Below are positions 4,225-26,263 of a DNA stretch of 32,586 nt, one piece after another. Position 1 is the stretch's first letter, and the number at the start of each line of letters is the position of its first letter. A program made the translations under genes and the position numbers. The notes beneath the pieces are model-generated. The model had not been told where the DNA came from and searched no databases. It saw only the letters and a list, made by a program, of their open reading frames with translations. The stretch lies in IMG/VR virus record IMGVR_UViG_3300047551_000296, positions 1-32,586 of that record; one strand, given 5' to 3'. This stretch comes from a virus.

Positions 4225-6417
4225 ATGGCAGATACCAAGATCTCTGCATTGCCAAGTGGTAATCCAGCGCAGTCTGGAGATCAGATTCCAATTGCGCGTA
4301 GTGGAGCAAACTACAAAATTACGGCGGCAAGTATCGCATCACTTGCTGGCAACGTAGATGGTCCAGCATCATCAGTAGACAACCAGATTGCTTTATTTAA
4401 CAGTACGACTGGCAAAGTAATTAAAGCCGCCTCAACAACGGGCCTTTTAAAAGCATCATCGGGTGTGATTGCAGCGGCAGTAAGCGGCACAGATTATGCC
4501 CCTGCTACATCAGGCACAAGCATCCTTAAAGGATCTGGCACGGGTGGTTTTAGCAATGCAGCAGCAGGCACTGATTACCTTGCGCCGCCTTCTGGAACAT
4601 CCATTCTCAAAGCAAATTCTGGCGGCGCTCTTGCAAATGCAGTATCGGGAACGGATTACGCACCGGCAACATCTGGCACAAGCATTCTTTATGGAAATGG
4701 ATCGGGCGGGTTTAGCAACGTTACTGTAGGAAGCGGACTATCTTTTGCTGCTGGTACGCTATCAGCATCAGGGGGTGGCACAACGACAAATGCGCTAACC
4801 ATGAACAATAGTGGTTCTGGCGCAGCGTCTGGCACAACATTTGATGGCTCTGTAGCAAGAACAATCAGTTACAACACCGTAGGTGCGCCCAGCGAAACTG
4901 GCACAAATGCGTCGGGAACCTGGGGTATTTCAGTAACCGGGAATGCGGCCACCGCAACTTCAGTGGCAGGTGGCGCAGCCAACAAGATTGTTTATCAATC
5001 TGGTTCGGGTACAACTGTATTTATTGATGCCCCTGTGTCTTCTAATACATATCTTGGCTGGAACGGATCGGCATTTGCATGGAGCGCTCCGTCTGGTGCG
5101 GGAACGGTTTCATCCGTAGCACTGACAATGCCCACTGGATTTTCGGTAACTGGCTCACCAATTACAAGCTCAGGAACATTTGCGGTTACAACGTCGCTTA
5201 GTGGCATTTTGAAGGGTACTGGGTCAGGGTTTACAACTGCCAGTGCAGGCACAGACTACGCATCAGCGCCAACGGGCACGAACGCTCAATTACTAGCCAA
5301 CAACGGCAGCGGTGGCTTTTCCAATGTTACGGTTGGGTCTGGATTATCTTATTCCGCAGGAACTTTAACAGCTACAGGTGGTGGGTCAGGCACAGTTACA
5401 TCCGTTGATGTTTCTGGTGGCACAACGGGTCTTACAACATCTGGCGGCCCGATAACAACGTCTGGGACGATTACGCTTGCAGGCACTCTAGCCGTTGCCA
5501 ATGGCGGTACTGGTATCACATCATTTGGTACAGGTGTAGCAACAGCATTAGGCCAAAATGTTACGGGTTCTGGCGGCATTGCTTTATCCACAAGTCCATC
5601 ATTTACAACGCCAACACTCGGTGTTGCTAGCGCAACCTCAATCAATAAAGTGGCAGTTACTGCGCCAGCAAATTCAGCAACACTAACTTTATCTGATGGA
5701 TCTTCACTCATTACGTCTGGTGGTCATGCGCTGACGTTCACGACAACGGGGTCAACAAATGTTACGTTGCCTACATCGGGCACGCTTGCCACAACATCTA
5801 ACACGGTAGCATCAATTAGTTTTGGCACGACAGGATTAACACCAAGCACAACAACAACGGGAGCAGTGACGGTTTCTGGTACTTTGGCTGTCGCTAATGG
5901 TGGCACTGGCATTACATCGTTTGGCTCTGGCATAGCAACATGGCTAGGAACGCCATCATCGGCTAATTTAGCCGCTGCTGTTAGCGATGAAACTGGCACA
6001 GGTGCGCTTGTTTTTGCAAACACGCCAACACTTGTGACGCCTGTGCTTGGCACGCCAACATCCGGCAATTTAAGCAACTGTACTGTTGATGGCACTAATA
6101 AGGTTGGTTACATAGGAGCGCCGCAAAGCACCAATACAACCGTAGCTGCAAGCGACGCAGGTAAGCACATTTACTTCACAGGTGGTTCAACTGCGACGCT
6201 TACCGTCAACACAAACACAACAACGCCGATAGATGTTGGCACCACGATTCTTGTTGTCAACAACAACAGCGGTAACTTAACGATTTCAGGTGCTGGCGTG
6301 ACGTTCCAACTAGCTAACGGCGCAACAGGTAATAGGACGGTGGCAACAAAAGGCATGGCTACTTTGCTTAAAGTTGCAACCGATACTTGGTATGTTTCTG
6401 GCGCAGGGGTAACTTAA
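4225..6417 (+). CDS. Repetitive tail-fibre protein
   Basis: 730 residues. The N-terminus (ADTKISALPSGNPAQSGD, IPIARSG) is a widespread phage fibre head module. Residues about 80-190 contain tandem 'SGTDYAPATSGTSIL...G.GGFSN' repeats. They are followed by the fibre module GAASGTTFDGSVARTISYN with GASETGTN-type turns, and by two copies of VANGGTGITSFG (near residues 424 and 555). The C-terminal 120 residues form a compact beta domain (IYFTGGSTATLTVNT, TTILVVNNNSGNLTISG, MATLLKVATDTWYVSGAGV) likely to end the shaft. Such proteins trimerise into receptor-binding fibres. Similar modules recur in the fibre at 9968, so the two may exchange segments. GGAG stands five bases before the ATG. Confidence 0.75.
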   Translation: MADTKISALPSGNPAQSGDQIPIARSGANYKITAASIASLAGNVDGPASSVDNQIALFNSTTGKVIKAASTTGLLKASSGVIAAAVSGTDYAPATSGTSILKGSGTGGFSNAAAGTDYLAPPSGTSILKANSGGALANAVSGTDYAPATSGTSILYGNGSGGFSNVTVGSGLSFAAGTLSASGGGTTTNALTMNNSGSGAASGTTFDGSVARTISYNTVGAPSETGTNASGTWGISVTGNAATATSVAGGAANKIVYQSGSGTTVFIDAPVSSNTYLGWNGSAFAWSAPSGAGTVSSVALTMPTGFSVTGSPITSSGTFAVTTSLSGILKGTGSGFTTASAGTDYASAPTGTNAQLLANNGSGGFSNVTVGSGLSYSAGTLTATGGGSGTVTSVDVSGGTTGLTTSGGPITTSGTITLAGTLAVANGGTGITSFGTGVATALGQNVTGSGGIALSTSPSFTTPTLGVASATSINKVAVTAPANSATLTLSDGSSLITSGGHALTFTTTGSTNVTLPTSGTLATTSNTVASISFGTTGLTPSTTTTGAVTVSGTLAVANGGTGITSFGSGIATWLGTPSSANLAAAVSDETGTGALVFANTPTLVTPVLGTPTSGNLSNCTVDGTNKVGYIGAPQSTNTTVAASDAGKHIYFTGGSTATLTVNTNTTTPIDVGTTILVVNNNSGNLTISGAGVTFQLANGATGNRTVATKGMATLLKVATDTWYVSGAGVT

Positions 6418-7247
6418 TGGCTGGCGCACTCACAGCTTCGATTGCAGCAGCATTTGCTGGAAGCGCGTCACTTTCGTCCGTTGATTACCAAGTTGTTGCC
6501 GGAGGAGCATCTGGAGGCGCTCAATTTGGTGGTGGAGGAGGTGCGGGTGGAAGAAAAACAGGGGTATTGTCTGTATCTTCTGGATCAACTTACTCAATTA
6601 CCGTTGGTGGTGGTGGTGCGTCTATAAGCAGCGATAACAACGGAAACCCAGGTTCTAATTCCGTCCTTTCAACAATAACCGCTACGGGTGGTGGTTACGG
6701 CGCTAAAGCCAATACATCAACAACAGGCGGATCTGGTGGTTCTGGCGGTGGCGGTGGAAGAGGTGGGTCCGGAGGTTCCGGAACATCTGGAGAGGGTAAT
6801 TCTGGCGGTGGTTCTGGATCTAGTGGTTCTTATGGTGGTGGTGGTGGAGGCGGTGCTGGTGGTTCAGGATCTTCTGGGACAACATCTGTTGGCGGTGCTG
6901 GTGGTTCAGGAGCTGAATGGCCTACTGGTTCTGGTACTTACTACGCAGGTGGCGGTGGAGGTGGAGTTTATATAAGTGGGTCCGTTGGAGTTGGTGGTAC
7001 AGGAGGAGGCGGATCTGGAGGTATAAGTTATGGATCAGCTACAAATGGTGTAGCAGGAACGGCTAACACCGGCGGCGGTGGTGGTGGTGGTGGAACTAAT
7101 TCAGGGGCTGGTGGGTCTGGCGTTGTCTTTATTCGTTACGCAGATACCTTCCCTGCTTTAACTAGCACAACAGGATCGCCAACGATAACCGTAACTGGTG
7201 GTTATCGAACCTACAAATGGACAGGGAACGGTTCTTTTACGGTGTAA
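6417..7247 (+). CDS. Polyglycine-rich tail-fibre/adhesin
   Basis: 276 residues from the ATG at 6417, which overlaps the previous stop as TAATG; this is preferred over an upstream in-frame ATG at 6387. After an Ala-rich start (MAGALTASIAAAFAGS) and a strand (SVDYQVVAGGASGG), residues about 35-235 are a glycine-rich sheet of GGGGxGG, GGSGG and GGTGGGG tracts interrupted by Tyr, Thr and Ser. This resembles the glycine-rich domain of phage fibre-tip adhesins, in which polyglycine II helices carry variable loops. The C-terminus returns to a beta pattern (GVVFIRYADTFP, TGGYRTYKWTGNGSFTV), a conserved ending of such proteins. It probably contributes to host-receptor contact. The fibre assignment is strong; the receptor is unknown. 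Confidence 0.7.
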   Translation: MAGALTASIAAAFAGSASLSSVDYQVVAGGASGGAQFGGGGGAGGRKTGVLSVSSGSTYSITVGGGGASISSDNNGNPGSNSVLSTITATGGGYGAKANTSTTGGSGGSGGGGGRGGSGGSGTSGEGNSGGGSGSSGSYGGGGGGGAGGSGSSGTTSVGGAGGSGAEWPTGSGTYYAGGGGGGVYISGSVGVGGTGGGGSGGISYGSATNGVAGTANTGGGGGGGGTNSGAGGSGVVFIRYADTFPALTSTTGSPTITVTGGYRTYKWTGNGSFTV

Positions 7248-7251
7248 GAAT

Positions 7252-7617
7252 ATGGCTCACTTTGCAAAGTTAGATGAAAACAATGTAGTGCTTGAAGTGC
7301 ATGTTGTTCACAACAACGAGCTGCTTGATAAAAATGGCGTTGAACAAGAACATAAAGGGATTGATTTCTTAATTAACTGGTCAAACGGCTACTTGGCTTG
7401 GAAGCAAACAAGTTACAACGGATCGTTTAGGAAGAATTATGCAGGTATTGGTTATACCTATCAAGCAGACATTGACGCCTTCGTGCCGCCACAGCCTTTT
7501 GCTAGTTGGACGTTGAATGCAAATGTTCAGTGGGAAGCGCCAACACCTATGCCAAACGATGGACAGATGTATACTTGGGATGAGGCTTCAACCAATTGGG
7601 TGAAGTATGCCAGCTAA
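7252..7617 (+). CDS. Conserved tail-associated protein of cyanophage-like type
   Basis: 121 residues from the ATG at 7252, five bases after the previous stop; a further upstream in-frame start lies inside that gene and is unlikely. The sequence MAHFAKLDENNVVLEV...VVHNNEL, then WKQTSYNGSFRKNYAGIG, then QPFASWTLN and WEAPTPMPNDGQMYTWDE, matches a pattern I recall from small proteins next to fibre genes in marine cyanophages and other environmental phages. The Trp-rich end (ANVQWEAP, YTWDEASTNWV) looks like a small beta domain. It may be a fibre-tip or fibre-chaperone-like factor, but no function has been established that I know of. Its end overlaps the next start by 11 nt. Confidence 0.6.
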   Translation: MAHFAKLDENNVVLEVHVVHNNELLDKNGVEQEHKGIDFLINWSNGYLAWKQTSYNGSFRKNYAGIGYTYQADIDAFVPPQPFASWTLNANVQWEAPTPMPNDGQMYTWDEASTNWVKYAS

Positions 7618-8011
7618 AAGTAAAGCACAGTTTCGGCTCATGAAAGCAGCCGAAAACAATCCCAAGTTTGCCAAGAAGGTTGGCATTCGATCTGATGTGG
7701 CTGCAGAGTACACGCAGTCCAATGTGAAGGGAAAATCGTATGCGAAGCTTCCTGAACAGCTTAAAAATGGCGGTCCGAGCCTTGCGATTGGCCGTGGTGA
7801 AAAGCTTCCTGCAGATCAAGGCGCGGGTCTTACCGCCAAAGGCAGAGCGAAGTACAACCGAGAAACAGGATCAAACTTGAAGGCGCCACAGCCCCAAGGA
7901 GGCCCAAGGCGTGATTCGTTTTGCGCACGCATGGGTCCTGTAGCAAGAAAATCAGAGCGCGGGTCTCGTGCCCGAGCATCAATGAAACGCTGGAATTGTC
8001 CATCATGGTAG
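7607..8011 (+). CDS. Small basic phage protein, DUF6321-like
   Basis: 134 residues, Lys/Arg rich. The N-terminus (MPAKSKAQFRLMKAAENNP) forms a helix found in several phage basic proteins. The core GLTAKGRAKYNRETGSNLKAP, followed by RRDSFCARMGPVARKS, is a highly conserved motif in a family I recall as DUF6321; the label is from memory. Homologues typically end shortly after a 'KRWNC' sequence. Here three further residues (PSW) follow, and this tail lies exactly where the gene overlaps the 3' end of the - strand endonuclease. The function is unknown; the basic charge suggests nucleic-acid contact. The start overlaps the preceding gene by 11 nt. Confidence 0.6.
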   Translation: MPAKSKAQFRLMKAAENNPKFAKKVGIRSDVAAEYTQSNVKGKSYAKLPEQLKNGGPSLAIGRGEKLPADQGAGLTAKGRAKYNRETGSNLKAPQPQGGPRRDSFCARMGPVARKSERGSRARASMKRWNCPSW

Positions 8012-8556: not shown

Positions 8557-9627
8557 ATGTCCTATTCCGATACTTATGGCCAGGTTTTTAACGTCCAGAC
8601 GCTGATTGACCACGCTGCGAGGCGTTGTGGCAAGCTTGCTGAGGAGTTGACCAGCGAGCAATTGCTGACGGCCAGAGAGTCCTTGGGCTTTGTGCTGACC
8701 AATCTAATCAACATTGGCATCCAATACTGGGCTGTTAAGAAGGAAGTGATTGGCCTAACGCCAGAAAAATACATTTACACCTTGCCAGTGGGTGCTAATG
8801 ACGCCTTGAATGTGCTTTATCGGACCATGACACGGCCTTCGGGAAGCTACTCGAGCAGCGCTGGTGGCAATGCAGCTTATGCAGGCGATAGTGATGTTGA
8901 TACTTACTGCCTGCAAACAAGCACTAATGGCAATATTTCAATCAATTTTGGCACGAGCAACCCGATTTATGCTGGGTCAATCGGCCTGCTCCCCTATGTT
9001 TCTGGTGGTGGAAGCGCCACATGGACTCTCATCCTTGAGTATTCGACCGATGGATCAACTTGGAACACCTTGTATGACATCGGATCAGTGGTTGTTACTG
9101 ACAAACAGTGGGTTTGGTATGACATTGACCCCGGTCAGAGCGTCCAATACTACCGAGTAAGGGCATCTGGTGGCACAACACTGGCTTTGCGTGAGTTTTA
9201 TGTGGGCAATAACTCGCGTGAAATCCAAATGGCAAGGCTAAATCGTGACGATTACACGAATTTGCCCAACAAAAACTTCACGGCCAATCAGCCCTACCAG
9301 TTTTGGTTCAATCGCACGGTCCCACAGCCTGAAATTTACCTCTGGCCAGTGCCCAATGAGTGGTATGTGCAGATGACGGTCTGGTATTCCAAGCAAATCA
9401 TGGATGTGGGTGATTTAACCGATGAATTGCAGATTCCACAGCGCTGGTATCTGGCCACAGTGGGCATGTTGGCGCATCAATTAAGCATGGAATTGCCCCA
9501 AGTGCCGATGGATCGCATTCAATACCTTGAAAACCAGGCTGAAAAGTATCTCAATCTTGCCGAGGCAGAAGAGCGCGATCGTAGTCCGATTTACTTTGCA
9601 GTCAACATAAATCCATACACACGATAA
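8557..9627 (+). CDS. Head-tail adaptor-like protein with inserted discoidin-like domain
   Basis: 356 residues. Residues 1-92 (FNVQTLIDHAARRCG, LTSEQLLTARESLGFVLTNL) and 220-356 (IPQRWYLATVGMLAHQLSME, YLENQAEKYLNLAEAEERDRS) together resemble the helical adaptor proteins below the portal (P22 gp4, T7 gp11, SU10 adaptor). Between them, residues about 97-217 look like a galactose-binding/F5-8 type C sandwich: SDVDTYCLQTSTNGNISINFG, then LEYSTDGSTWNTLYD and YYRVRASGGTTLALREFYVG. The insertion could project from the connector as a decoration or carbohydrate-binding lobe. A second, shorter adaptor-like gene lies at 20167, so one may be a paralogue. Family membership is inferred from pattern; the insertion is visible. 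Confidence 0.55.
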   Translation: MSYSDTYGQVFNVQTLIDHAARRCGKLAEELTSEQLLTARESLGFVLTNLINIGIQYWAVKKEVIGLTPEKYIYTLPVGANDALNVLYRTMTRPSGSYSSSAGGNAAYAGDSDVDTYCLQTSTNGNISINFGTSNPIYAGSIGLLPYVSGGGSATWTLILEYSTDGSTWNTLYDIGSVVVTDKQWVWYDIDPGQSVQYYRVRASGGTTLALREFYVGNNSREIQMARLNRDDYTNLPNKNFTANQPYQFWFNRTVPQPEIYLWPVPNEWYVQMTVWYSKQIMDVGDLTDELQIPQRWYLATVGMLAHQLSMELPQVPMDRIQYLENQAEKYLNLAEAEERDRSPIYFAVNINPYTR

Positions 9628-9968
9628 TGCCAATGTTCCTTGACACCGAGGGCTATGCCGACATTGCGATTGCAATTTGCGATCGTTGTCGTATGAAACG
9701 TCCTCATGCCACCCTTGGCCCTGACATTAACTTTCCAGGGTTGATGGTTTGCGAGGAGAATTGCCGCGATGAAAAAGATCCTTATCGCCTACCAGCACGG
9801 CAGACAGAGCGTATTAACTTGCGTTTTCCACGGCCTGATGTTTCTGTGGCTGCTATCCAGAATAATTTGGTCTTGAATGATCAGCAATCAATCATTCTTT
9901 CGACAGAGGGCAATACCCAGACGCCGGAAAACAATGGGAATCTCGACGGACTAGCGATTTCACCATAA
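9627..9968 (+). CDS. Small four-cysteine (putative zinc-binding) phage protein
   Basis: 113 residues, starting at a TAATG overlap with the adaptor-like gene. Residues 18-46 contain C18-x2-C21, then C42-x3-C46 (CDRC and CEENC), which suggests one zinc ribbon-like site. It is followed by DPYRLPARQTERINLRFPRPDV, a conserved stretch I associate with small proteins beside adaptor genes in phages of Proteobacteria. The last 25 residues are Asn/Gln rich and probably flexible. A connector-associated or packaging-linked role is plausible from position, but nothing in the sequence fixes the function. Confidence 0.6.
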   Translation: MPMFLDTEGYADIAIAICDRCRMKRPHATLGPDINFPGLMVCEENCRDEKDPYRLPARQTERINLRFPRPDVSVAAIQNNLVLNDQQSIILSTEGNTQTPENNGNLDGLAISP

Positions 9969-11284
9969 TGGCAAATCAAACTATTACCCAGTTACCTGAT
10001 GCCACTGCATTAGCAGGCACAGAGTTAGTCCCCATTGTCCAAGGCGGTGGGACTGTCAAAACAACTGTCTCTGCGATTGCTGCAACATCAACATCATCCT
10101 TTAGCGCTGGCACGACGGGATTAACGCCATCAACGCCAACAAGCGGCGCTGTTGTTCTTGCAGGCACGCTTATTACAAGCAATGGCGGCACAGGTCTATC
10201 TTCCTATACAGCAGGCGATACGCTTTACTACGCCTCGGGAACGGCTTTATCAAAACTAGCCATCGGTGCGGCATCACGCATCATGACGTCATCGGGATCT
10301 GCGCCACAGTGGACGGACCCGGCAAGTATTACCGTGGGTACGGCAACTTCTGCCACTACGGCGACAAATATTGCCGGTGGTGCCGCAGGATCATTGCCCT
10401 ATCAAACGGGCGCTGGTGCAACGTCCTTCCTCGGTATTGGTACGGCTACGCAGATCTTAAAGGTCAATGCAGGTGCTACGGCACTGGAATATGCTGACCA
10501 GTCAACACTGGCGGTCGGTACTGCAACCAACCTAGCCGGTGGAACTGCTAATCAGATTGCTGTGCAGTCCAATGTCGGCACCACGACATTTATCACAGCA
10601 CCCACGGTTGCAAGCACGGTCTTGTCATGGAATGGTGCAGCATTTACTTGGGCCACACCAGCAGCAGGGACCGTCACAGCAGTCACAGCATCAGCGCCAC
10701 TAGCATCTTCAGGTGGCGCGACTCCAGACATCAGTTTGGGCACGGTGACCACAGCTAATGGTGGCACAGGACTCACCACGTACACGGCTGGCGATCTACT
10801 GTATTACGCCACGGGCACGGCGCTTAGTAAGCTCGGGATTGGCGCATCAACCTACATTCTGACATCTTCAGGCACAGCGCCACAGTACACAAACCCTGCC
10901 ACGATTACGGTGGGCACGGCAACCACAGCAGGCTCGGTGGCCAACTCAGTGACGTTTAACAGCACGGGCGGTGCATCACCTGGCACGACGTTTAATGGCT
11001 CAGTTGCCAGGACAATTGACTATAGCTCGGTGGGAGCGCCTAAGGCTGATGGCACAGGCGCTTCAGGCACTTGGGGCATTAGCATCAGTGGCAGTGCTGC
11101 GTCGGCCACTTCTGCAACCACAGCCACCACAGCCACTAATGTTGCAGGTGGTGCTGCAGGCTCACTGGTTTATCAAACTGCAAGTGCAACAACATCAACA
11201 TTAGCACTAGGAACCCAAGGTTATGTCCTTCGTGCTGGTGCTTCAGCCCCTGAGTGGGCAGTGATCGACGGAGGTACATTCTAA
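9968..11284 (+). CDS. Repetitive tail-fibre protein
   Basis: 438 residues, starting at a TAATG overlap. The head segment MANQTITQLPDATALAGTE, followed by LVPIVQGGG, is the same type as that of the 4225 fibre. The shaft has repeated blocks of the form 'TANGGTGL.TYTAGD.LYYA.GTALSKL.IGA' (near residues 60 and 260), 'GTATNIAGGAAGSLPYQTG' modules at three places, and one GGASPGTTFNGSVARTIDY module shared with the 4225 fibre. The C-terminus stops abruptly at AVIDGGTF, an ending also seen as GGISGGTF in the protein at 20799, so both may need a partner protein to complete the tip. It probably trimerises into a fibre shaft. Confidence 0.7.
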   Translation: MANQTITQLPDATALAGTELVPIVQGGGTVKTTVSAIAATSTSSFSAGTTGLTPSTPTSGAVVLAGTLITSNGGTGLSSYTAGDTLYYASGTALSKLAIGAASRIMTSSGSAPQWTDPASITVGTATSATTATNIAGGAAGSLPYQTGAGATSFLGIGTATQILKVNAGATALEYADQSTLAVGTATNLAGGTANQIAVQSNVGTTTFITAPTVASTVLSWNGAAFTWATPAAGTVTAVTASAPLASSGGATPDISLGTVTTANGGTGLTTYTAGDLLYYATGTALSKLGIGASTYILTSSGTAPQYTNPATITVGTATTAGSVANSVTFNSTGGASPGTTFNGSVARTIDYSSVGAPKADGTGASGTWGISISGSAASATSATTATTATNVAGGAAGSLVYQTASATTSTLALGTQGYVLRAGASAPEWAVIDGGTF

Positions 11285-11862
11285 TGCCAGCCACCAACTT
11301 TACGCCTATCCAGCTTTATAGAACCAACACGGCGTCTACCACGGCGCCAGCGGCTGGTAACTTAAACGCTGGTGAACTTGCCATCAATTACAACGATGGC
11401 GGGATGATTCTGTTTGCCAAGAACACCACGGGCACTGTTATCAAGTTGATGAACAACCCTGCTAGCTTGCTGTATCCCACGGCAGATGGCACCAATGGAC
11501 AAGTCATCAAAACAAATGGCTCTGGCACGCTTTCATTCACGACAGTGGGCTATCTCAACATCCCCCAGTCAGGATCGGCTAAAACCACGGCATATACACT
11601 CACAACAGGCGATGTAGGTGAGTTCATCGAGGTGGGATCTGGTGGCTCCATTGAAATCCCCAACTCAACATTTTCTGCTGGTGACGCTGTTTTGATCTTC
11701 AACAATACGGCTGGTGGCATTACCATTACTTGCACGATCACGACGGCTTACATTGGTGGCACGGACTCCGATAAAGCCACGATGACATTAGCCACGCGAG
11801 GCATTGCCAGCATCTTGTTTGTTTCGGGTACGGTGTGTGTTGTTACGGGTAACGTGAGCTAA
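11284..11862 (+). CDS. Fibre-associated beta-rich virion protein
   Basis: 192 residues from the ATG at 11284 (TAATG overlap); an upstream in-frame ATG at 11254 lies inside the preceding gene. The N-terminus FTPIQLYRTNTASTTAP, followed by LNAGELAINYNDGGMILF, is a common phage fibre/baseplate attachment motif. The C-terminal half (FIEVGSGGSIEIPNSTF, GDAVLIFNNTAGGITITC, ATRGIASILFVSGTVCVV) forms a beta domain similar in style to the end of the 4225 fibre. It probably extends or caps the preceding fibre and is translationally coupled to it. Confidence 0.55.
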   Translation: MPATNFTPIQLYRTNTASTTAPAAGNLNAGELAINYNDGGMILFAKNTTGTVIKLMNNPASLLYPTADGTNGQVIKTNGSGTLSFTTVGYLNIPQSGSAKTTAYTLTTGDVGEFIEVGSGGSIEIPNSTFSAGDAVLIFNNTAGGITITCTITTAYIGGTDSDKATMTLATRGIASILFVSGTVCVVTGNVS

Positions 11863-11865
11863 GTC

Positions 11866-13260
11866 ATGCCGATTGTTCTCAAAGACCGAGTTAAGACCAC
11901 GACCACAACCACGGGTACGGGTACGCTCACCCTTAGCACGGCAGCTACGGGCTATCAAGCTTTCTCAGCTATCGGTGATGGTAACCAAACGTATTACATG
12001 ATTACGGATGGCACCAACTGGGAAACGGGTCTGGGAACGTATACGGCAAGTGGCACGACACTGAGCCGTGACCAAGTCTTTGAATCAAGCAATAGTGGTG
12101 CGCTGGTTAACTGGGGTGCTGGAAGCAAGGATGTGCTGTGTGGCTGGCCGTCTGCTGCTACTGCCGGTGGTGTGCCAAGTGCTGATAACAGCAGTATCGG
12201 TACAGACTTATCGGGATGGTCAGCCTTCCAAGCATCGTTGATGAATGGTGTGAATGGTGATGTGACCTTTGGGAACAATAGTACCAATGGGATAGTGAGT
12301 ACTTACAGTCTGGTTTATTCTTCAGCGGCTTTTAAGCACTTCGGTGGTGTATTAGCCCCCAACGGTGATATTCATTTCCTTCCTTATGATGCGCCAGTTG
12401 GTCAAAAAATAAACTATTTTACTGGAGTAGTTTCTACTTATTCTTTGGCATATACAAATCCCGGAGGCGGTTTAGCAGGCGGTGGTGTTCTTGCACCCAA
12501 CGGAGATATTCATTTTGTTCCTACTGAAGCAAGAGTAGGACAAAAAATAAATGCCTCAGGAGTTGTTTCTACATATTCATTAGTTTATACAACATCAAGT
12601 GCATATGCTGGCGGTGTTCTGGCTCCTAACGGAGACATACATTTTGTACCACGTGGCGCAGCGAGGGGGCAAAAAATATCTGCTGCTGGAACAGTGTCCA
12701 CATACTCATTAGTTTATACGACATCTGAAGCATATTACGGTGGCGTACTAGCCCCTAATGGAGATATACATTTTGTTCCTAATAGTGCCGCAGTAGGTCA
12801 AAAAATATCAGCAGCGGGAGTGGTATCTACCTATTTATTAGTTTATACGACAACAAATGCTTATAACGGTGGAGTGTTGTCTCTTAACGGAGACATTCAT
12901 TTTGTTCCTAAAAGCGCTGCTGTAGGTCAAAAAATCTCTGTATCTGGAGTAGTTTCCACATATTCTTTAGTTTACACAGTAAGTGCGGCTTACGGTGGTG
13001 GAGTTTTAGCCCCCAATGGCGATATACACTTTGTGCCGTATTCTGCTAATCAAGGCCAAAAAATTTCTGTGAATGGTGTTGTGTCTACCTATTCTCTTGT
13101 TTATACGAGATCAAACGCAAATTGGGGCGGCATTCTTGCTCCTGATGGAAGCATTTATTTTATTCCAAATGTTGGCGGAGTAGGCCAGCGCATCAACACT
13201 AATCCCGGCTCACCACTTGGTCTTGGTGTATGCCTTTCATCCTTCCTTAATAAGTTCTAA
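11866..13260 (+). CDS. Seven-repeat putative beta-propeller tail protein, paralogue A
   Basis: 464 residues. Residues 1-95 form a domain (MPIVLKDRVKTTTTTTGTGT, QTYYMITDGTNWETG, GTTLSRDQVFESSNSGALVNW) common at the N-termini of phage tail proteins and probably the virion anchor. Residues 96-141 are a linker. Residues 142-446 are exactly seven tandem repeats of 43-45 residues with core STYSLVYT, then GGVLAPNGDIHFVP, then GQKI. Seven blades of this length fit a seven-bladed beta-propeller; the 'GGVLAPNG.I...P' core recurs in propeller-like proteins I recall. The C-terminus is GVCLSSFLNKF. It is the first and most divergent in synonymous codons of three tandem paralogues. A receptor-binding role is inferred. 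Confidence 0.7.
   Translation: MPIVLKDRVKTTTTTTGTGTLTLSTAATGYQAFSAIGDGNQTYYMITDGTNWETGLGTYTASGTTLSRDQVFESSNSGALVNWGAGSKDVLCGWPSAATAGGVPSADNSSIGTDLSGWSAFQASLMNGVNGDVTFGNNSTNGIVSTYSLVYSSAAFKHFGGVLAPNGDIHFLPYDAPVGQKINYFTGVVSTYSLAYTNPGGGLAGGGVLAPNGDIHFVPTEARVGQKINASGVVSTYSLVYTTSSAYAGGVLAPNGDIHFVPRGAARGQKISAAGTVSTYSLVYTTSEAYYGGVLAPNGDIHFVPNSAAVGQKISAAGVVSTYLLVYTTTNAYNGGVLSLNGDIHFVPKSAAVGQKISVSGVVSTYSLVYTVSAAYGGGVLAPNGDIHFVPYSANQGQKISVNGVVSTYSLVYTRSNANWGGILAPDGSIYFIPNVGGVGQRINTNPGSPLGLGVCLSSFLNKF
12289..13203 (+). repeat. Seven in-frame ~129-bp repeats in paralogue A
   Basis: Seven units with lengths in residues of 45, 45, 43, 43, 43, 43 and 43 start at residue 142. The framework (positions 1-11 and 18-31) is nearly invariant. 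Positions 12-17 and 32-36 vary from unit to unit. The seventh unit departs from the rest (GGILAPDGSIYFIP, GQRI), as expected for a closing blade. Confidence 0.9.
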
Positions 13261-13263
13261 GCC

Positions 13264-14652
13264 ATGACATTCGTTGTTCGTGATCGAATCAAAGTCACCA
13301 CGACCACTACAGGCACGGGGACCTTGACGCTTGGATTGGCTGTTGCTGGCTTTCAAGACTTTACCAATATCGGCAATGGCAATCAGACCTACTACACCAT
13401 CACGAATGGTATTGACTGGGAAACAGGCATTGGCACGTACACATCATCGGGTACGACACTAAGCCGTGACATAGTGCTGGCATCTTCAAATAGTGGGGCC
13501 TTAGTCAACTGGGCCGCAGGAACCAAAACAGTCTTTGTACCCTTTCCTGCAATGGCAAGCCAAGGATCAGCACCGACGGGTGATAACAGCAGCATTGGCA
13601 CGGATGAAGTTGCCTTCCAAAACTTCCAGAAGAACTTATACAAAAGCGTCAATGGTGGCGTAGCCTTCAACAACAATGGTACGAATGGTGTTGTGAGTAC
13701 GTTCAGTTTGGTCTATACCGCAGGGGGGGACTTATCCTATGGTGGTGTATTAGCTCCTAATGGTGATATATATTTCATACCTTTATCCGCAGCCGTAGGT
13801 CAAAAAATCTCAGCATCAGGAGTAGTTTCTACATACTCTTTGGTTTTTACGAGAAACTCAGCATATTCTGGCGGCGTCTTAGCCCCTAATGGTGATATAC
13901 ATTTTGTTCCTTGGTTAGCTGATGTAGGACAGAAAATATCGTCATCTGGCGTAGTATCAACTTATTCTCTCGTATATACCGCAGGGGGCGCATATATTGG
14001 AGGTGTACTTGCACCCAATGGGGATATTCATTTTGTTCCTAACTCAGCAAACAGAGGTCAAAAAATCTCTGCTGCTGGCGTAGTAAGTACGTATAGTTTA
14101 GTGTATACCGGGTCGGCTTTATATACTGGCGGTGTATTAGCTCCTAATGGGGACATACATTTTATCCCTAACAGTGCAGCAGTAGGCCAAAAAATTTCTG
14201 CTGCTGGAGTAGTTTCTACATACTCTTTAGTTTATACAGGAAGTAATTCATACCAAGGCGGTGTATTAGCCCCTAATGGAGATATACATTTTGTGCCTCG
14301 TAATGCAGCAGTAGGCCAAAAAATATCTACTTCTGGCGTAGTATCAACTTATTCTCTCGTCTATACCGCAGTAGCCAAACACACAGGCGGTGTACTAGCA
14401 CCTAACGGTGATATTCATTTTGTTCCTTATAATGCAGCAGTAGGACAAAAAATATCTGCATCTGGGGTAGTTAGTACTTATAGTTTGGTGTATACCGCTA
14501 GCGGTGCTTACATCGGTGGTGTTCTTTCTCCTGATGGCTCAATCATATTTATACCGGGCGCTGGCGCCAATAGAGGCCAACGCATTCAAACCTGCCCAGC
14601 TATTCCACTAGGCATTGAGTCATGCCTAAGTTCATACCTTAATAAGTTCTAG
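13264..14652 (+). CDS. Seven-repeat putative beta-propeller tail protein, paralogue B
   Basis: 462 residues, starting three bases after paralogue A ends. The N-terminal domain (MTFVVRDRIKVTTTTTGTGT through VNWAAGTKTVFVPFP) aligns without gaps with that of A, and the repeat block again starts at residue 142. Seven repeats (44, five of 43, then 44 residues) follow, with a distinct last unit (GGVLSPDGSIIFIP, GQRIQTC) and the shared ending CLSSYLNKF. Like A, it is predicted to be a seven-bladed propeller on a fibre-anchoring domain. Silent codon choices show a period of three repeats (see findings), implying past block duplication. It may form a heteromeric tip with A and C or be an alternative binding protein. 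Confidence 0.7.
   Translation: MTFVVRDRIKVTTTTTGTGTLTLGLAVAGFQDFTNIGNGNQTYYTITNGIDWETGIGTYTSSGTTLSRDIVLASSNSGALVNWAAGTKTVFVPFPAMASQGSAPTGDNSSIGTDEVAFQNFQKNLYKSVNGGVAFNNNGTNGVVSTFSLVYTAGGDLSYGGVLAPNGDIYFIPLSAAVGQKISASGVVSTYSLVFTRNSAYSGGVLAPNGDIHFVPWLADVGQKISSSGVVSTYSLVYTAGGAYIGGVLAPNGDIHFVPNSANRGQKISAAGVVSTYSLVYTGSALYTGGVLAPNGDIHFIPNSAAVGQKISAAGVVSTYSLVYTGSNSYQGGVLAPNGDIHFVPRNAAVGQKISTSGVVSTYSLVYTAVAKHTGGVLAPNGDIHFVPYNAAVGQKISASGVVSTYSLVYTASGAYIGGVLSPDGSIIFIPGAGANRGQRIQTCPAIPLGIESCLSSYLNKF
13687..14595 (+). repeat. Seven in-frame repeats in paralogue B with three-unit periodicity
   Basis: Units 1, 4 and 7 encode the framework serines with AGT (AGTAC...AGT). Units 2 and 5 use TCT ACA TAC TCT, and units 3 and 6 use TCA ACT TAT TCT CTC. 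Units 2 and 5, and likewise 3 and 6, also agree through the LAPNGDIHFVP segment. This indicates duplication of a three-unit (about 387 bp) block. Confidence 0.8.
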
Positions 14653-14654
14653 CC

Positions 14655-16037
14655 ATGCCAATAGTCATCAAAGATAGGGTCAAATCCACGACCACCACGA
14701 CGGGGACGGGCACTTATACGCTTGGCTCTGCTGCTGTAGGCTTCCAAGCCTTCTCAGTCATTGGTAATGGCAATCAGACGTATTACTGCTGCACGAATGG
14801 CACGGACTGGGAATTAGGCTTAGGCACTTATACGTCATCGGGTACAACGCTATCCCGCGACACAATCCTTGCATCATCCAACAGTGGCAATGCAGTCAAC
14901 TGGAGTGCTGGCACACGAGACATTTACGTTACGTATCCTGCTGAGTACACTCCTGGCGCAGTGCCAAAAGCTGATACAAGTGCTGTTGGTACGGACCTTG
15001 TGGCATGGAACAACTTAAAGAAGGTCTTGGATCTGGGTGTCCAAGAAGGTGTGCCGTATGCCAATAACGGCACCAATGGGATGGTTAGTACTTATAGTTT
15101 GGTATATACCGCTGGCAGTGCTTACCAAGGTGGAGTATTAGCACCTAATGGTGATATTCATTTTATTCCATATAGTGCAGACCGAGGACAAAAAATATCA
15201 TCCTCTGGCGTAGTCAGTACTTATAGTTTGGTATATACCTTTGGCAGTGCTTACGTAGGAGGGGTATTAGCATCTAATGGAGATATTCATTTTGTTCCAT
15301 TTCTTGCAGACCGAGGACAAAAAATCTCATCTTCTGGTGTAGTTAGTACCTATAGTTTGGTGTATACCCTTGGTACTGCTGGTGCTTATTCTGGTGGAGT
15401 ATTAGCACCTAACGGAGATATTCACTTTATTCCATATAGTGCAAACATAGGTCAAAAAATCTCATCTTCAGGAGTAGTTAGTACCTATAGTTTGGTGTAT
15501 ACCGTTAGCGGTGCTTACCAAGGAGGTGTATTAGCCCCTAATGGAGATATTTATTTTGTTCCAACTAATGCAAACAGAGGACAAAAAATATCATCTTCTG
15601 GTGTAGTTAGTACCTATAGTTTGGTTTATACCGCTAGCGTTGCTTACCGAGGTGGTGTATTAGCACCTAACGGAGATATTCACTTTATTCCATATAGTGC
15701 AAACAGAGGTCAAAAAATCTCATCTTCAGGAGTAGTTAGTACCTATAGTTTGGTGTATACCGTTAGCGGTGCTTACCAAGGAGGTGTATTAGCCCCTAAT
15801 GGAGATATTTATTTTGTTCCAACTATTGCAAACAGAGGCCAGAAAATATCATCTTCTGGTGTAGTTAGTACCTATAGTTTAGTGTATACCACAACCAATG
15901 CTTACTGGGGTGGTGTTTTAGCTCCTAATGGTGATATTCACTTTGTCCCATATAGTGCAGACAGAGGCCAAAAAATCTCCACTAACGCCACCTTCCCCAT
16001 AGGCGTTTGTCTTTCACCATTCTTTAACAAGTTCTAG
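14655..16037 (+). CDS. Seven-repeat putative beta-propeller tail protein, paralogue C
   Basis: 460 residues, two bases after paralogue B. The N-terminal domain (MPIVIKDRVKSTTTTTGTGT, WELGLGTYTSSGTTLSRD) is colinear with A and B, and the repeat block begins at residue 142. Seven units (six of 43 residues and one of 45) are the most homogeneous of the three genes; nearly all end GQKISSS and share silent codons. The last unit is not divergent as in A and B, and the C-terminus is the shortened GVCLSPFFNKF. A 222-bp near-identical duplication lies inside it. Predicted fold and role are as for A. The AGGAGG ribosome site of the next gene follows directly, so the trio and the transferase appear to be one transcription unit. 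Confidence 0.7.
   Translation: MPIVIKDRVKSTTTTTGTGTYTLGSAAVGFQAFSVIGNGNQTYYCCTNGTDWELGLGTYTSSGTTLSRDTILASSNSGNAVNWSAGTRDIYVTYPAEYTPGAVPKADTSAVGTDLVAWNNLKKVLDLGVQEGVPYANNGTNGMVSTYSLVYTAGSAYQGGVLAPNGDIHFIPYSADRGQKISSSGVVSTYSLVYTFGSAYVGGVLASNGDIHFVPFLADRGQKISSSGVVSTYSLVYTLGTAGAYSGGVLAPNGDIHFIPYSANIGQKISSSGVVSTYSLVYTVSGAYQGGVLAPNGDIYFVPTNANRGQKISSSGVVSTYSLVYTASVAYRGGVLAPNGDIHFIPYSANRGQKISSSGVVSTYSLVYTVSGAYQGGVLAPNGDIYFVPTIANRGQKISSSGVVSTYSLVYTTTNAYWGGVLAPNGDIHFVPYSADRGQKISTNATFPIGVCLSPFFNKF
15078..15986 (+). repeat. Seven in-frame repeats in paralogue C
   Basis: The seven units have highly similar DNA. Over 15481-15600 I count 46 G+C in 120 bases (38%), against 64 of 120 (53%) over the N-terminal stretch 14701-14820. 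The repeat half of the gene therefore has its own composition. Confidence 0.9.
15401..15880 (+). repeat. 222-bp direct duplication spanning two repeat units
   Basis: 15401-15622 and 15659-15880 match at all but four positions and are offset by 258 bases, exactly two 129-base units. Units 3-4 are therefore a recent copy of units 5-6 or the reverse. The differences include Ile/Arg (ANIGQ versus ANRGQ) and Asn/Ile (TNANRG versus TIANRG), both at the variable second segment. Confidence 0.9.
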
Positions 16038-16045
16038 GAGGATTT

Positions 16046-17431
16046 GTGTATAGCCGCGACAAAATCATTGCAACCATGCAAGAAATTTACGATGAGTCAA
16101 AAAGCATTGCGCCGTATGTCGTGATTGCCCAGCCTCGTCGAAACTTAGAAGAGACTGCGGCTCAAAACTTTGATGGCTATGATGGCCTTCATATTGATTT
16201 ACTTGGCTTTTCCCATGGCTTTTGCAACATCGGCGGTGAGAAGGTTGACGTTGCTCGAAACTACTTGATTGAGCAAGCCCTTGAGTCAGGTGCCAAGTAC
16301 TTGTTCTTTGTGGGTGAAGATACTGTCATCCCCTATGACGGCTTCAAAGTGTTGCACGAAACAGCAGAAGCTAATCCCGGCTGCATTGTGACAGGCGTGT
16401 ACTACATCAAATGCTCAGATGCCATGATCATGGTGCGTAATGGCAACTGGATCACGATTCCCAATGTAGACCCCGGCCAACTGATTCAAGCGTGGCAAAC
16501 AGGCATGGATGCCATGCTCATCCCAATTGAGATCCTGCGTCAGATGAAAGAAGAAGCGCCTGATATGCCCTTCTGCTGCATTGGTAACAACGTGGATGGT
16601 CCCAAGGGTGTGATCCCCTTTATCGGTGAAGACAACTTCTTTGTCCACCGACTGCATAAGCGTGGCACCAAGCTCTTAGTGAACACGGATGTTCAGTGCC
16701 TGCACATGGACTTGGCTTCGGGTATGTACACCGCGCATCCCTCGGTCAATCTTAAAAACTTTTATACCAACATCAAGCCCACCAGACCACTGACGTTGGA
16801 TGACAAGGACTTCATTGATCGTCGCTGGCATGATCGTTTGCCTGAAGGCACAGGTGTTAAAGCGGACTATGCAAGCATCATCACGCAGATGATCAAAGAA
16901 GGGCAGTCCATCAAATTCAATATGGGCTGTGGCTCAGACAGGCGCAAGGGCTATATCGGTATTGATAAGCATAGTGATCGCGCTGACATCAGACAGGACT
17001 TATTCAAGGTCAATTTGCCAGAAGAGTGCGCCGACGAGATTCTTGCCAGCCATGTGATTGAGCATTTGCCACAGCACCGTGCGCCAGAGATTTTGACTAA
17101 ATGGCACAAGACATTAAAGCCCGGAGGTAAGTTTGTCACCGAGCAACCAGACCTTGAAGAACTTTGTAAAGACTTCTTGACGCAAGATGGCATGGATAAG
17201 CACATGACTGCTATGTGCATTTATGGTGCGGCGATTACATCTGAAGTGCGTTTTGACGGCACACTAGACCCTGAGGTGTTGGAGAAGGGCGCTTTATCAC
17301 CGCATCTTTGGGGTTACACGCCGAAGACTTTGACTGATCTTTGCCAAGCAGTAGGGTTCAAAGACATCCAAATCCTGCCAGCCATTGGCGGTCATCCCGG
17401 CAAAAACTTTAGACTTGAGGCAACCAAATGA
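16046..17431 (+). CDS. Glycosyltransferase-methyltransferase fusion
   Basis: 461 residues from a GTG start preceded by AGGAGG with a four-base gap. Residues about 20-245 look like a GT-A fold glycosyltransferase: DVARNYLIEQAL, the strand AKYLFFVGEDTVIP with Glu91-Asp92 where a DxD metal motif is expected, GEDNFFVHRLHKRG at 194-207 (the GED..F type) and a late CLHMD His. Residues about 285-445 are a class I SAM-dependent methyltransferase: FNMGCGSDRRKGYIGID at 291-307 (SAM loop and acidic strand end), ILASHVIEHLP at 332-342 and WHKTLKPGGKF at 353-363. The product could add and methylate a sugar on a virion protein, a host polysaccharide or DNA. Donor and target cannot be read from sequence. 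No signal peptide is seen, so it acts in the cytoplasm. Confidence 0.75.
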   Translation: MYSRDKIIATMQEIYDESKSIAPYVVIAQPRRNLEETAAQNFDGYDGLHIDLLGFSHGFCNIGGEKVDVARNYLIEQALESGAKYLFFVGEDTVIPYDGFKVLHETAEANPGCIVTGVYYIKCSDAMIMVRNGNWITIPNVDPGQLIQAWQTGMDAMLIPIEILRQMKEEAPDMPFCCIGNNVDGPKGVIPFIGEDNFFVHRLHKRGTKLLVNTDVQCLHMDLASGMYTAHPSVNLKNFYTNIKPTRPLTLDDKDFIDRRWHDRLPEGTGVKADYASIITQMIKEGQSIKFNMGCGSDRRKGYIGIDKHSDRADIRQDLFKVNLPEECADEILASHVIEHLPQHRAPEILTKWHKTLKPGGKFVTEQPDLEELCKDFLTQDGMDKHMTAMCIYGAAITSEVRFDGTLDPEVLEKGALSPHLWGYTPKTLTDLCQAVGFKDIQILPAIGGHPGKNFRLEATK

Positions 17432-17859
17432 GCATCTCACTGGAAGGCTTGATGTCCCCCGGCGGGGACGAGACACGGGCATTAGCTATGCTCAAGGTAG
17501 ACCACAACGGCCTGACTTATGACTGGCAGGCTTTTGTGCCGCCCAATACAGATCTCACAACCTTCATCGCGCAGTCAGAAGCAACGATCAAAGCACAAAT
17601 TGACGCTAAAGAAGCGGCATGGGCAGCACTCACACCCAAGACGCGGGAAGTCATTGATCCCATCACAGGTGAAACCAAGACAGTACCAATTGAAAAGTCA
17701 GAGATTGTGCGGCCTGACATCCCTGACTATTACGCCAAGCGCCGTGCTGAATACCCATCAATTGGTGATCAACTGGATGCATTGTGGAAGGGTGGCGAAG
17801 CGCAGGCCGATATGTTTGATGCTATTACCGCAGTCAAAGCAAAGTATCCCAAGGAGTAA
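17428..17859 (+). CDS. Small tail-associated protein with EYPSIGDQLDALWKGG motif
   Basis: 143 residues, coupled by ATGA to the transferase gene. The C-terminal motif YYAKRRAEYPSIGDQLDALW occurs in small proteins next to fibre genes in many phages, some annotated as tail-fibre-assembly or tail-associated. The middle is a charged helix (AQSEATIKAQIDAKEAAWAAL), and the N-terminus has a strand pair (NGLTYDWQAFVPPNTDL). A fibre chaperone or attachment subunit is possible; the function is unproven. AAGGAG at its 3' end serves as ribosome site for the 36-residue gene that follows. Confidence 0.55.
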   Translation: MSISLEGLMSPGGDETRALAMLKVDHNGLTYDWQAFVPPNTDLTTFIAQSEATIKAQIDAKEAAWAALTPKTREVIDPITGETKTVPIEKSEIVRPDIPDYYAKRRAEYPSIGDQLDALWKGGEAQADMFDAITAVKAKYPKE

Positions 17860-24565: not shown

Positions 24566-26263
24566 ATGACAACTTCAAATTTGCTATCCAGCACTGGAAC
24601 TACTTTTCAGATGAGTCCTTTGGATTATGCAAATGCACTCAACAAAACCTACACAGATGCAACTGATCTGTACAACCGAGCCGTAGGAATGTTTGGCGAG
24701 ACATCTGCTCAAGCGGCGGCTGCTAAAAATAATATGCTTGCATCTCAGAGGCAGTTGTCTAACTTAAGCGGTGCCGCAACAGGAGCTTTGCCAGCCACGG
24801 GCGCTGTAACAACCACCCCAGCTACTGGTGCTTTAACAACAACTCCAGCAACAGGTGCCATAACAGCAGCACCAGCTACTGGTGCTTTAACAACACCAGC
24901 TACGAGTGCTGTAACGTCGACTCCTGCTACTGGAGCCTTAACAACGTCAGCCACAGGTGCTGCGACAGCAGCGCCTTTGACCATCCAACAAAGACTTCAA
25001 GCAGCCGCCGGAGCCGACAATAACTTGACATACAGTCAGTTGATGTCGATTGCTAACCAGAACAATTTAACGCTTGATCAAATAGCGCCTTACATCTCAG
25101 ATCCTACAAATCGTACGGCAGTGCTTGCAGATCTAAATAAATTCAAACCTTCGTTTAATGCACTTTATGAAACGTATGCTCCAAATGCTGTAAATACGTA
25201 CGCTATTAACCAAGCGGAAGAGCTAGCAAGGGAAAACCAAAGAGTTGATTTTTCTAATCAAAACCGTGCAACGCAGTTAGAAGCTTGGAAGCGTGGCTAT
25301 TGGAACACCCCTGAATTATTGGCAGGTGGGCGGGAATCGATCAACACTTATTACGGCGCAAAACCCGTTTATTTAACAAGCGCACTAACTGGTGCGAACC
25401 AAGGTGCTACGAGCAATCGCCTTATATCAACGCTTCAAAACGCTATGCAAAACCCTGGAGGGTTGGGTGAAAACATCAAGGCGGCTGTTGGTGCGTATCA
25501 AGATCCGACGGGCAAGACAGTTGCTTCGCCAACAGAGATTGCAGCAGCAGACGCTTATGTCAAAAGAATAACAGGCAATCCAAATGCAACTTACACAAAC
25601 ACTTTACGAGATTTAGATACGCGTGGTGGCGGCTTCATGTACGACGAGCAGCGACTACTCGGTGATGTGAAGAGCAATCTTACTAAAGGGTTAGAAGCAA
25701 ATCTTTCTATATCGAAGTGGGACCCCAAGACTAGGGGTGAGATGTTTGCGAAAAAGATAAACGACCTTGGGGTTTCTCCTAATTTTGCGGCAGCGGCACT
25801 GGGCGTTTCAGAGAATGATATTTTAAGACTCGCCGGTGGCGACCCTGCACTGTGGAGCCGACTTGCAGTCAATGAATTAATCCCCACGCAACCCGTAAGA
25901 GAGGGTGCATCTTACAGATATGGGCCAGCCGCAATAGTAAGTGGACCAAGCACTAACACGGCGCTTACGGCTAGCCAACCAACAACAAGCACTAGCACAG
26001 CGCTTACGGCTAGCCAACCAACAGATACCGGAACAATACTTCCAAAATCTGATCTTTTTCCTAAGACTGGCGCGGGTCTCGTTAATCCACAAAGTGTAAG
26101 AGTAGGAACAAAGGTAGTTTCTATGGAATCAATTTCCGGATTGCCTATTCCCGAGCAAGTAATAAAGCTTAAAGCGCTTGGGGTTAAAGCGTCTGATTTG
26201 ATTGCCGGTGGTTTCAACACAAATTATGTTAATGACTTAGTAAGCCAAGGGTTGCAAAAATAA
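24566..26263 (+). CDS. Large virion protein with ATGAL repeats, possible internal/ejection protein
   Basis: 565 residues from ATG 24566, favoured over an in-frame TTG nine bases upstream because of AAGGG at 24552-24556. Residues 71-137 are short ATGA(L/V/I)-TTTP repeats. Residues 140-430 are helical (EELARENQRVDFSNQNRATQ, LEAWKRGYWNTPELLAGG), and a second short repeat (TALTASQPT, twice) lies near residue 475. The C-terminus contains IPEQVIKLKALGVKASDLI. It precedes two other large helical proteins in the same run. In podoviruses this place holds proteins packaged in the head and ejected with DNA, so that role is suggested by position. No enzymatic motif is seen. Confidence 0.55.
   Translation: MTTSNLLSSTGTTFQMSPLDYANALNKTYTDATDLYNRAVGMFGETSAQAAAAKNNMLASQRQLSNLSGAATGALPATGAVTTTPATGALTTTPATGAITAAPATGALTTPATSAVTSTPATGALTTSATGAATAAPLTIQQRLQAAAGADNNLTYSQLMSIANQNNLTLDQIAPYISDPTNRTAVLADLNKFKPSFNALYETYAPNAVNTYAINQAEELARENQRVDFSNQNRATQLEAWKRGYWNTPELLAGGRESINTYYGAKPVYLTSALTGANQGATSNRLISTLQNAMQNPGGLGENIKAAVGAYQDPTGKTVASPTEIAAADAYVKRITGNPNATYTNTLRDLDTRGGGFMYDEQRLLGDVKSNLTKGLEANLSISKWDPKTRGEMFAKKINDLGVSPNFAAAALGVSENDILRLAGGDPALWSRLAVNELIPTQPVREGASYRYGPAAIVSGPSTNTALTASQPTTSTSTALTASQPTDTGTILPKSDLFPKTGAGLVNPQSVRVGTKVVSMESISGLPIPEQVIKLKALGVKASDLIAGGFNTNYVNDLVSQGLQK
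24776..24976 (+). repeat. Short tandem coding repeats (ATGAL..P type)
   Basis: Eight ATGA/ATSA units spaced 7-9 residues apart, with near-identical DNA such as GCTACTGGTGCTTTAACAAC recurring. Such repeats change copy number by slippage. The encoded segment is probably a flexible linker between the N-terminal helix and the helical body. Confidence 0.75.

Follow-up and report, generated by a model that had tools for sequence, protein, structure and literature searches.

Architecture of the gene trio

The stretch of DNA analysed here (the window) is the linear record IMGVR_UViG_3300047551_000296 of an uncultivated virus in IMG/VR, 32,586 bases long, and our subject is a trio of adjacent genes in it, which encode three related proteins of seven repeats each. 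All three genes lie on the plus strand, gene A at 11866-13260 (464 amino acids), gene B at 13264-14652 (462 amino acids) and gene C at 14655-16037 (460 amino acids), and the distance from each stop codon to the next start is 2-3 nucleotides (nt). Each protein begins with an N-terminal domain (N-domain) of some 98 residues, which is followed by a linker up to residue 143, by seven repeats and by a short C-terminal tail (C-tail). The N-domains are encoded at 11866-12159 (A, residues 1-98), 13264-13557 (B) and 14655-14948 (C), and the predicted propellers, described below, at 12295-13188 (A), 13693-14589 (B, residues 143-442) and 15084-15974 (C). In B the linker, with a helix at residues 115-128, occupies 13558-13692 and the C-tail 14590-14649; both are specific to the gene position. 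Pairwise identity among the three proteins is 66-68% in the N-terminal approximately 98 residues, 47-51% in the linkers, 71-75% in the propellers and 42-64% in the C-tails.

The repeat unit VSTYSLVYT..GGVLAPNGDIHFVP..GQKIS is present exactly seven times per protein, with a spacing of 43 residues and in a few cases of 44 or 45. A preliminary description of this DNA had reported three adjacent genes with a common N-domain, linker, repeats and C-terminus, and this is confirmed by the open reading frames and by their ends (CLSSFLNKF, CLSSYLNKF and CLSPFFNKF, that is CLS-x-[FY]-[LF]-NKF). Its count of seven repeats of about 43 residues also stood, but it had placed the first of them at residue 142, whereas our phasing gives residue 144 in A, B and C.

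The N-domain is of the adaptor type common to the tail fibres of cultured phages. Its residues 1-96 are 62-65% identical to annotated tail-fibre proteins of cultured or sequenced phages, an S74-annotated fibre protein of the Methylophilales phage Venkman is among the matches, and the same domain also heads propeller-less fibre genes in two related phages (L042 and L047, where L with a number denotes a locus of the collection introduced below).

Predicted fold of the repeat domain

All three proteins exceed the gathering score of 50 of the Pfam family PF24684 (Vgb lyase family), with 51.8 bits for A, 51.6 for B and 94.1 for C, and B matches the solved virginiamycin and streptogramin B lyases in sequence with an E-value of 7e-8. 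AlphaFold2 was run on B together with 98 relatives (a 99-sequence alignment), and the model had a mean predicted local distance difference test score (pLDDT) of 85, with the repeats mostly above 90 and four strands per blade. The order of strands in it is D (143-147), then six times A, B, C, D, and finally A, B, C; the ring is predicted to be closed, since the last blade, which has only three strands of its own, is completed by the strand 143-147; completion by the first strand is the usual closure of propellers. When the model was compared with known structures by Foldseek and VIA-align, the seven-bladed virginiamycin and streptogramin B lyases came top, with template modelling (TM) scores of 0.86-0.90 on the target; the Vgb lyase match extended over about 295 residues with a Z score of 33 and a root-mean-square deviation of 2.4, and the next family reached Z 27. 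With three methods in agreement, the repeat domain is almost certainly a closed seven-bladed beta-propeller of the Vgb fold, as predicted for B by modelling and for A by homology to this model. A seven-bladed propeller had been proposed in the preliminary description, and the closed ring, the seven-bladed best matches and the first place of the Vgb lyases in the fold-database comparison that it had suggested all agree with this proposal.

The likeness to the lyases was also followed to their active site. In the sequence alignment, the catalytic residues His228 and His270 of the lyase correspond to column 15 in blades 6 and 7, and the residues found there are G/W in A, T/I in B and Q/W in C, none of them His. 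The lyase structure 2z2p is an H270A mutant, inactive according to the title of the structure. No column of the repeat varies more than column 15 (3.78 bits), and the NCBIfam lyase models VgbA and VgbB gave 41-81 bits (VgbA 50-81) against a cut-off of 600. Lyase activity of the propellers was rejected, since the catalytic positions are hypervariable and non-His and the NCBIfam scores lie far under the cut-off.

Distribution and the fixed number of three

A scan of viral contigs yielded 73 distinct loci among the best 80 matches, and further scans added 18 contigs; these loci were collected by similarity to the query and do not form a random sample. Exactly three genes were found in 50 of the 53 non-redundant loci whose array does not run off the end of its contig, 28 of the 50 with the N-domain and 22 with a start of about 25 residues in its place, and 149 of 155 trio genes have exactly seven repeats. 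The exceptions to the number of three are L044 (third gene broken), L073 and L135. The phage contigs that carry the three-gene set reach about 240 kb. Since PF24684 is matched above the gathering score by all three proteins of the window and the three-times-seven arrangement recurs in these uncut loci, the repeat trio lies far beyond chance. The preliminary description had called three such genes in a row unusual, which holds for cultured phages, but within this family three is the rule, as was seen in the search of other phage genomes that it had recommended.

The full set was not found in the 50,697 phage records of the collection searched, which yielded only the N-domain and remote propellers; cultivation thus appears to have missed the trio. 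A search of 84,980 genomes of bacteria and archaea confirmed no close relative. Among cultured phages, the proteins nearest to the heads are those of the Cylindrospermopsis phages OQ625504.1 and MH636380.1, with a related propeller of 35-37% identity, which in OQ625504.1 makes up the C-terminal portion of a large protein adjoining virion structural genes. Propeller genes split in two reading frames were seen in L007 (gene 3) and L044 (gene 2/3), either through a sequencing or assembly error in the repeats or as a real off state.

Fixed frames and interchangeable heads

We call the parts of each protein outside the propeller (N-domain, linker and C-tail) its frame, and the propeller its head. 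In a tree of N-domain plus linker only 3 changes of gene position were counted (minimum 2; shuffled mean 44). For the class with N-domain, the best match of each part in another phage was scored for the same gene position, leaving out one phage at a time (n=89). The same position was recovered for the N-domain in 87 of 89 cases, for the linker in 86 and for the C-tail in 88 (97-99%), and for the propeller in 28 (31%), which equals chance. Three distinct frame types in the same order were present in 27 of 29 loci, and in these 29 loci no frame had its nearest relative among the other frames of the same phage. Because N-domain, linker and C-tail predict the gene position while the propeller does so at chance, the frames are fixed and the heads interchangeable; the best-match counts indicate that frames A, B and C are old paralogues and that the heads are not tied to them. 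A recent one-event transfer of a whole head across frames was not found, only shorter tracts within the same phage, such as that between genes 2 and 3 of L067 (92.5% over 187 nt). The pattern is less sharp in the class without N-domain (same-position match 79-89%, propeller 56%), partly because the order looks swapped in L069 and L070.

Head replacement and the hypervariable face

Between the window and the related locus L005, DNA identity is 91-96% in the N-domain and 93% downstream of the trio, 72-80% in the scaffold codons of the blades, and the variable residues of the blades are 18-32% identical. The fraction of identical four-fold degenerate sites is 0.86 for the N-domain but 0.40 for the blade scaffold, where random blades give 0.34; the slot-by-slot comparison of blades may understate identity where blades have shifted, such a shift being itself recombination. 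The same picture was obtained from four-fold sites in other phage pairs, except L031/L055. Sliding identity drops at the first blade and is back above 87% at the C-tail. In gene 2 of L015 and L033 blades 1-3 are mostly above 90% identical and the following ones about 68%, which places a breakpoint within the propeller. Within single genes, repeats were seen at whole-blade shifts: C of the window is 93% identical to itself over 329 nt at a shift of two blades, and the 98% DNA identity of its blades 4 and 6 marks them as a recent within-gene copy. Taken together, these DNA comparisons indicate that heads are replaced wholly or partly by recombination and that blades are copied within genes; the blade count nevertheless stays at seven, probably because a closed ring demands it.

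Among 1,060 distinct blades, seven of the 43 columns are hypervariable (10, 11, 12, 15, 30, 31 and 33, at 2.7-3.8 bits; the next column has 2.2). On the strands of the B model all seven fall in the D-A and B-C loop regions, including the first residues of strand A, and the chance that all seven variable columns lie within those 16 of the 43 is P = 3.6e-4. The topology of a propeller puts the D-A and B-C loops on the same side, so that the variable positions are predicted to share one face; there is little variation in the C-D turn, and the A-B turn, on the opposite face, is conserved. In 87 close blade pairs the ratio of nonsynonymous to synonymous changes was 357:38 in the variable codons and 104:468 in the scaffold codons. 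Because the pairs were picked for little divergence in the scaffold, the scaffold rate is depressed, but the ratio inside each of the two classes is unaffected. The ratios are indicative of diversifying selection acting on a putative binding face.

Proposed function and alternative explanations

The explanation which we favour, with a probability of about 0.7 for the whole, is that the trio encodes a host-recognition fibre built on three fixed frames with exchangeable heads. The three genes would specify tail-fibre (or similar virion-surface) subunits which jointly form one host-recognition device, each subunit having an attachment part (N-domain and linker), an exchangeable propeller head without the lyase residues and a conserved C-tail. 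One each of the old and distinct frames A, B and C would be kept in fixed order, and the heads would be replaced and mixed by homologous recombination, both between phages and between the blades or genes of one phage. Changes at the seven loop positions of each blade, 49 in a head and 147 in the trio, would be kept by selection for the binding of new host surface molecules. A, B and C would most likely assemble 1:1:1 into one heterotrimeric fibre end, and the adjacent glycosyltransferase/methyltransferase-like protein would probably modify the assembled fibre or its target.

Not all parts of this explanation are equally strong. The architecture, the predicted fold, the number of genes, the fixed frames, the exchange of heads, the one-sided hypervariability and the gene linkage were shown computationally, while the location in the virion, receptor binding, the heterotrimer and the role of the transferase are inferred. 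An adhesin role of the trio is very probable; host recognition, already proposed in the preliminary description, has become better founded, since the N-domain occurs in annotated tail fibres, the neighbours are fibre genes and the variation is confined to one face. The A-B-C heterotrimer, proposed because of the number three, the presence of one of each frame and the 1:1:1 precedent of virophage DSLV2 (see below), is an evenly balanced proposition by analogy, which would explain why the genes number three. More tentative is the extended version, possible in our opinion, in which an obligate A-B-C heterotrimer, each of its fixed frames bearing a different head shuffled by recombination (21 blades, approximately 147 hypervariable residues), would provide host recognition of a combinatorial, antibody-like kind without a diversity-generating retroelement (DGR), matured by its own transferase, as a cassette moving between phages of very different genome size.

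Several observations weigh against the favoured explanation. Slow in-place divergence of some heads is possible, given the highly conserved scaffold of residues. The frame positions in the class with N-domain have no clear counterparts in the class without it (30/60 and 26/60 agree), and in some relatives one member alone carries an extra domain, which is compatible with a symmetric trimer but not predicted by it. When the read-through trio of L075 was modelled as a single chain (stops as Gly, three-sequence alignment), the pLDDT was 42, and this gives no evidence on the heterotrimer.

The main rival is that each of the three proteins trimerises with itself alone, so that three separate homotrimeric fibres would place three adhesins on one attachment ring and widen the host range. 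Fibres of the S74 class are typically homotrimeric, and this alternative accords with the same N-domain being found on the propeller-less fibre genes of L042 and L047 and on the S74-annotated Venkman protein, as well as with the interchangeability of heads between frames; nevertheless we hold it to be rather unlikely, as it leaves unexplained both the presence of exactly three genes, one per frame, in 50 of 53 loci on contigs of up to about 240 kb and the fact that heads homogenise while frames never do. It is much less probable that the propellers do not belong to the virion at all but are secreted or intracellular proteins directed against the host, for example inhibitors or decoys: the phages without N-domain, which have merely about 25 residues ahead of the linker, would suit this idea, but the tail-fibre N-domain, the adjoining fibre genes, the inserted LamG domains and a collagen-like upstream neighbour speak against it.

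The possibility of enzymatic spikes, in which the propellers would be hydrolases or lyases (depolymerases) acting on host polysaccharide or other surface compounds, was suggested by the closest fold being that of a lyase and by the frequency of propellers among glycan-active enzymes. We judge it improbable on account of the G/W, T/I and Q/W residues in the positions of His228 and His270 on hypervariable column 15 and of the low VgbA scores; moreover, the variable face has no evident conserved polar set fit for a common catalytic site, and the conserved blade columns are chiefly scaffold glycines, prolines and hydrophobics. Variation limited to defined codons within a conserved scaffold would also be expected of a DGR target, with heads actively mutated by a reverse transcriptase. 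This origin was rejected as highly improbable: reverse transcriptase PF00078 was not detected in 22 related virus records, which may be fragments, while a control search was positive in 3 genomes; the scaffold synonymous sites likewise differ almost randomly, and the variable codons have no AAY-derived pattern.

Relation to known systems

Repetitive propellers and the WD40 heads of fungal NOD-like receptors (NLR) are known to undergo blade amplification and exchange, as is seen in the trio. They also share with it near-identical blades and a variable binding surface (PMC9218822, PMC12222747), but these systems are cellular, and the word 'phage' is absent from the main text of PMC9218822. The Vgb lyases (PDB 2z2p and 2qc5; PF24684) resemble the trio in the seven-bladed fold of about 300 residues, with Z 33 and the gathering score passed. 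The trio differs from them by hypervariable non-His residues at the catalytic His positions, near-identical blades, a fused fibre N-domain and three genes in a row. The receptor-binding protein of Staphylococcus phage phi11, a single-gene homotrimer, has a five-bladed propeller head (PMC4901313), preceded by a helical segment and with the first strand closing the last blade, as in our model; phi11 thus has five blades and one gene, the trio seven blades and three genes. PhiKZ gp131C (PDB 4GBF) is a seven-bladed propeller at the periphery of the baseplate, suspected of receptor binding but with function unproven (cited in PMC4901313); it is a single protein, for which PMC4901313 describes neither a trio nor a hypervariable repeat face. 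In virophage DSLV2 three consecutive tail proteins form a 1:1:1 heterotrimer which binds lipopolysaccharide (PMC12724248). As in the trio, its tail genes are consecutive paralogues, each present once and in an order that is fixed, and the arrangement is conserved among related viruses; in DSLV2, however, they form a T4 gp37-like needle with the collar domain PF07484, and the text of PMC12724248 contains neither propellers nor repeats. PF07484 was not found in the window trio in a Pfam scan up to E 1. Tentaclins (PMC10743442) were set aside as relatives, being of C-type lectin rather than propeller fold.

Propellers in phage receptor-binding proteins (phi11, PhiKZ gp131C) and highly repetitive propellers (PMC9218822) are therefore already known, the former from a handful of individual cases, and only recently was a heteromeric fibre of three paralogues shown, in one virophage. 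The fixed trio, the separation of head and frame, the one-sided hypervariability and the linked transferase were not found in the literature searched, which was a limited selection. The trio represents a widespread module in which frame and head are naturally separated and the constrained and the free parts can be told from sequence alone; it is apparently an exchangeable tool for the recognition of host bacteria. With over 1,000 distinct blades built on one scaffold it forms a library made by nature, and it provides a test case for the retargeting of phages without retroelements and a candidate for heterotrimeric fibre assembly.

Genomic surroundings and variants of the module

The gene directly upstream of the trio (11254-11862, plus strand) has a weak match to a long tail fibre distal subunit (PHROG 1699), and a further fibre-like gene lies at 9968-11284; in L067 a collagen-like gene is directly upstream. 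The neighbours in the window are fibre, endolysin and tail structural genes, ordered as in the Caulobacter phages GB2A and RW, and the structural block resembles that of GB2A, RW, RLK and KcrB, in none of which a relative of the trio was found.

Downstream, the gene at 16046-17431 (plus strand) encodes a protein with a glycosyltransferase-like N-terminal part (weak PHROG match) and a C-terminal class I methyltransferase; this protein could modify the fibre. A gene like it stands directly 3' of the trio in 62 of 65 loci; conversely, a propeller gene immediately precedes the transferase-like gene in all 53 loci with enough upstream sequence, and exactly three precede it in 38 of 40 with sufficiently long upstream sequence. 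It had no match in the 50,697 phage records. The next gene of the set, for a 143-amino-acid protein (17428-17859, plus strand), is present in 59 of 65 loci.

Genes B and C of the window have no Shine-Dalgarno-like motif, but such a motif belongs to gene 3 in 27 of 35 related phages of the same class. Translational coupling was dropped as proof of 1:1:1 expression, as it is not general among related phages.

In some relatives whole adhesin domains, either LamG_3 (lectin-like) or a second type of propeller, are inserted in the N-domain: in gene 1 and/or 3 of L012, L023, L031, L040, L053 and L055, and in genes 2 and 3 of L054; in gene 3 of L059 the insertion is in the short start instead. Extra propellers of the same repeat are inserted in the N-domains of L061/L062 and L211/L223, with C-tails still of the usual kind. 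The propeller-enriched frames (L211:1614-5969, L223, and L061:3177-5672 and 5685-7994) reach up to 27 repeats in one protein. Gene 3 of L117 and L128 has a glycine-rich C-terminal region in place of the last blades (PF21722 below cut-off in L128).

Elsewhere in the window, the product of 8557-9627 has weak F5/8 type C (discoidin-like) and SU10-adaptor-like matches, both below gathering scores, and may be an adaptor with a sugar-binding domain. A protein of 1,797 amino acids without any PHROG match is encoded by 26263-31656, where the tail block ends.

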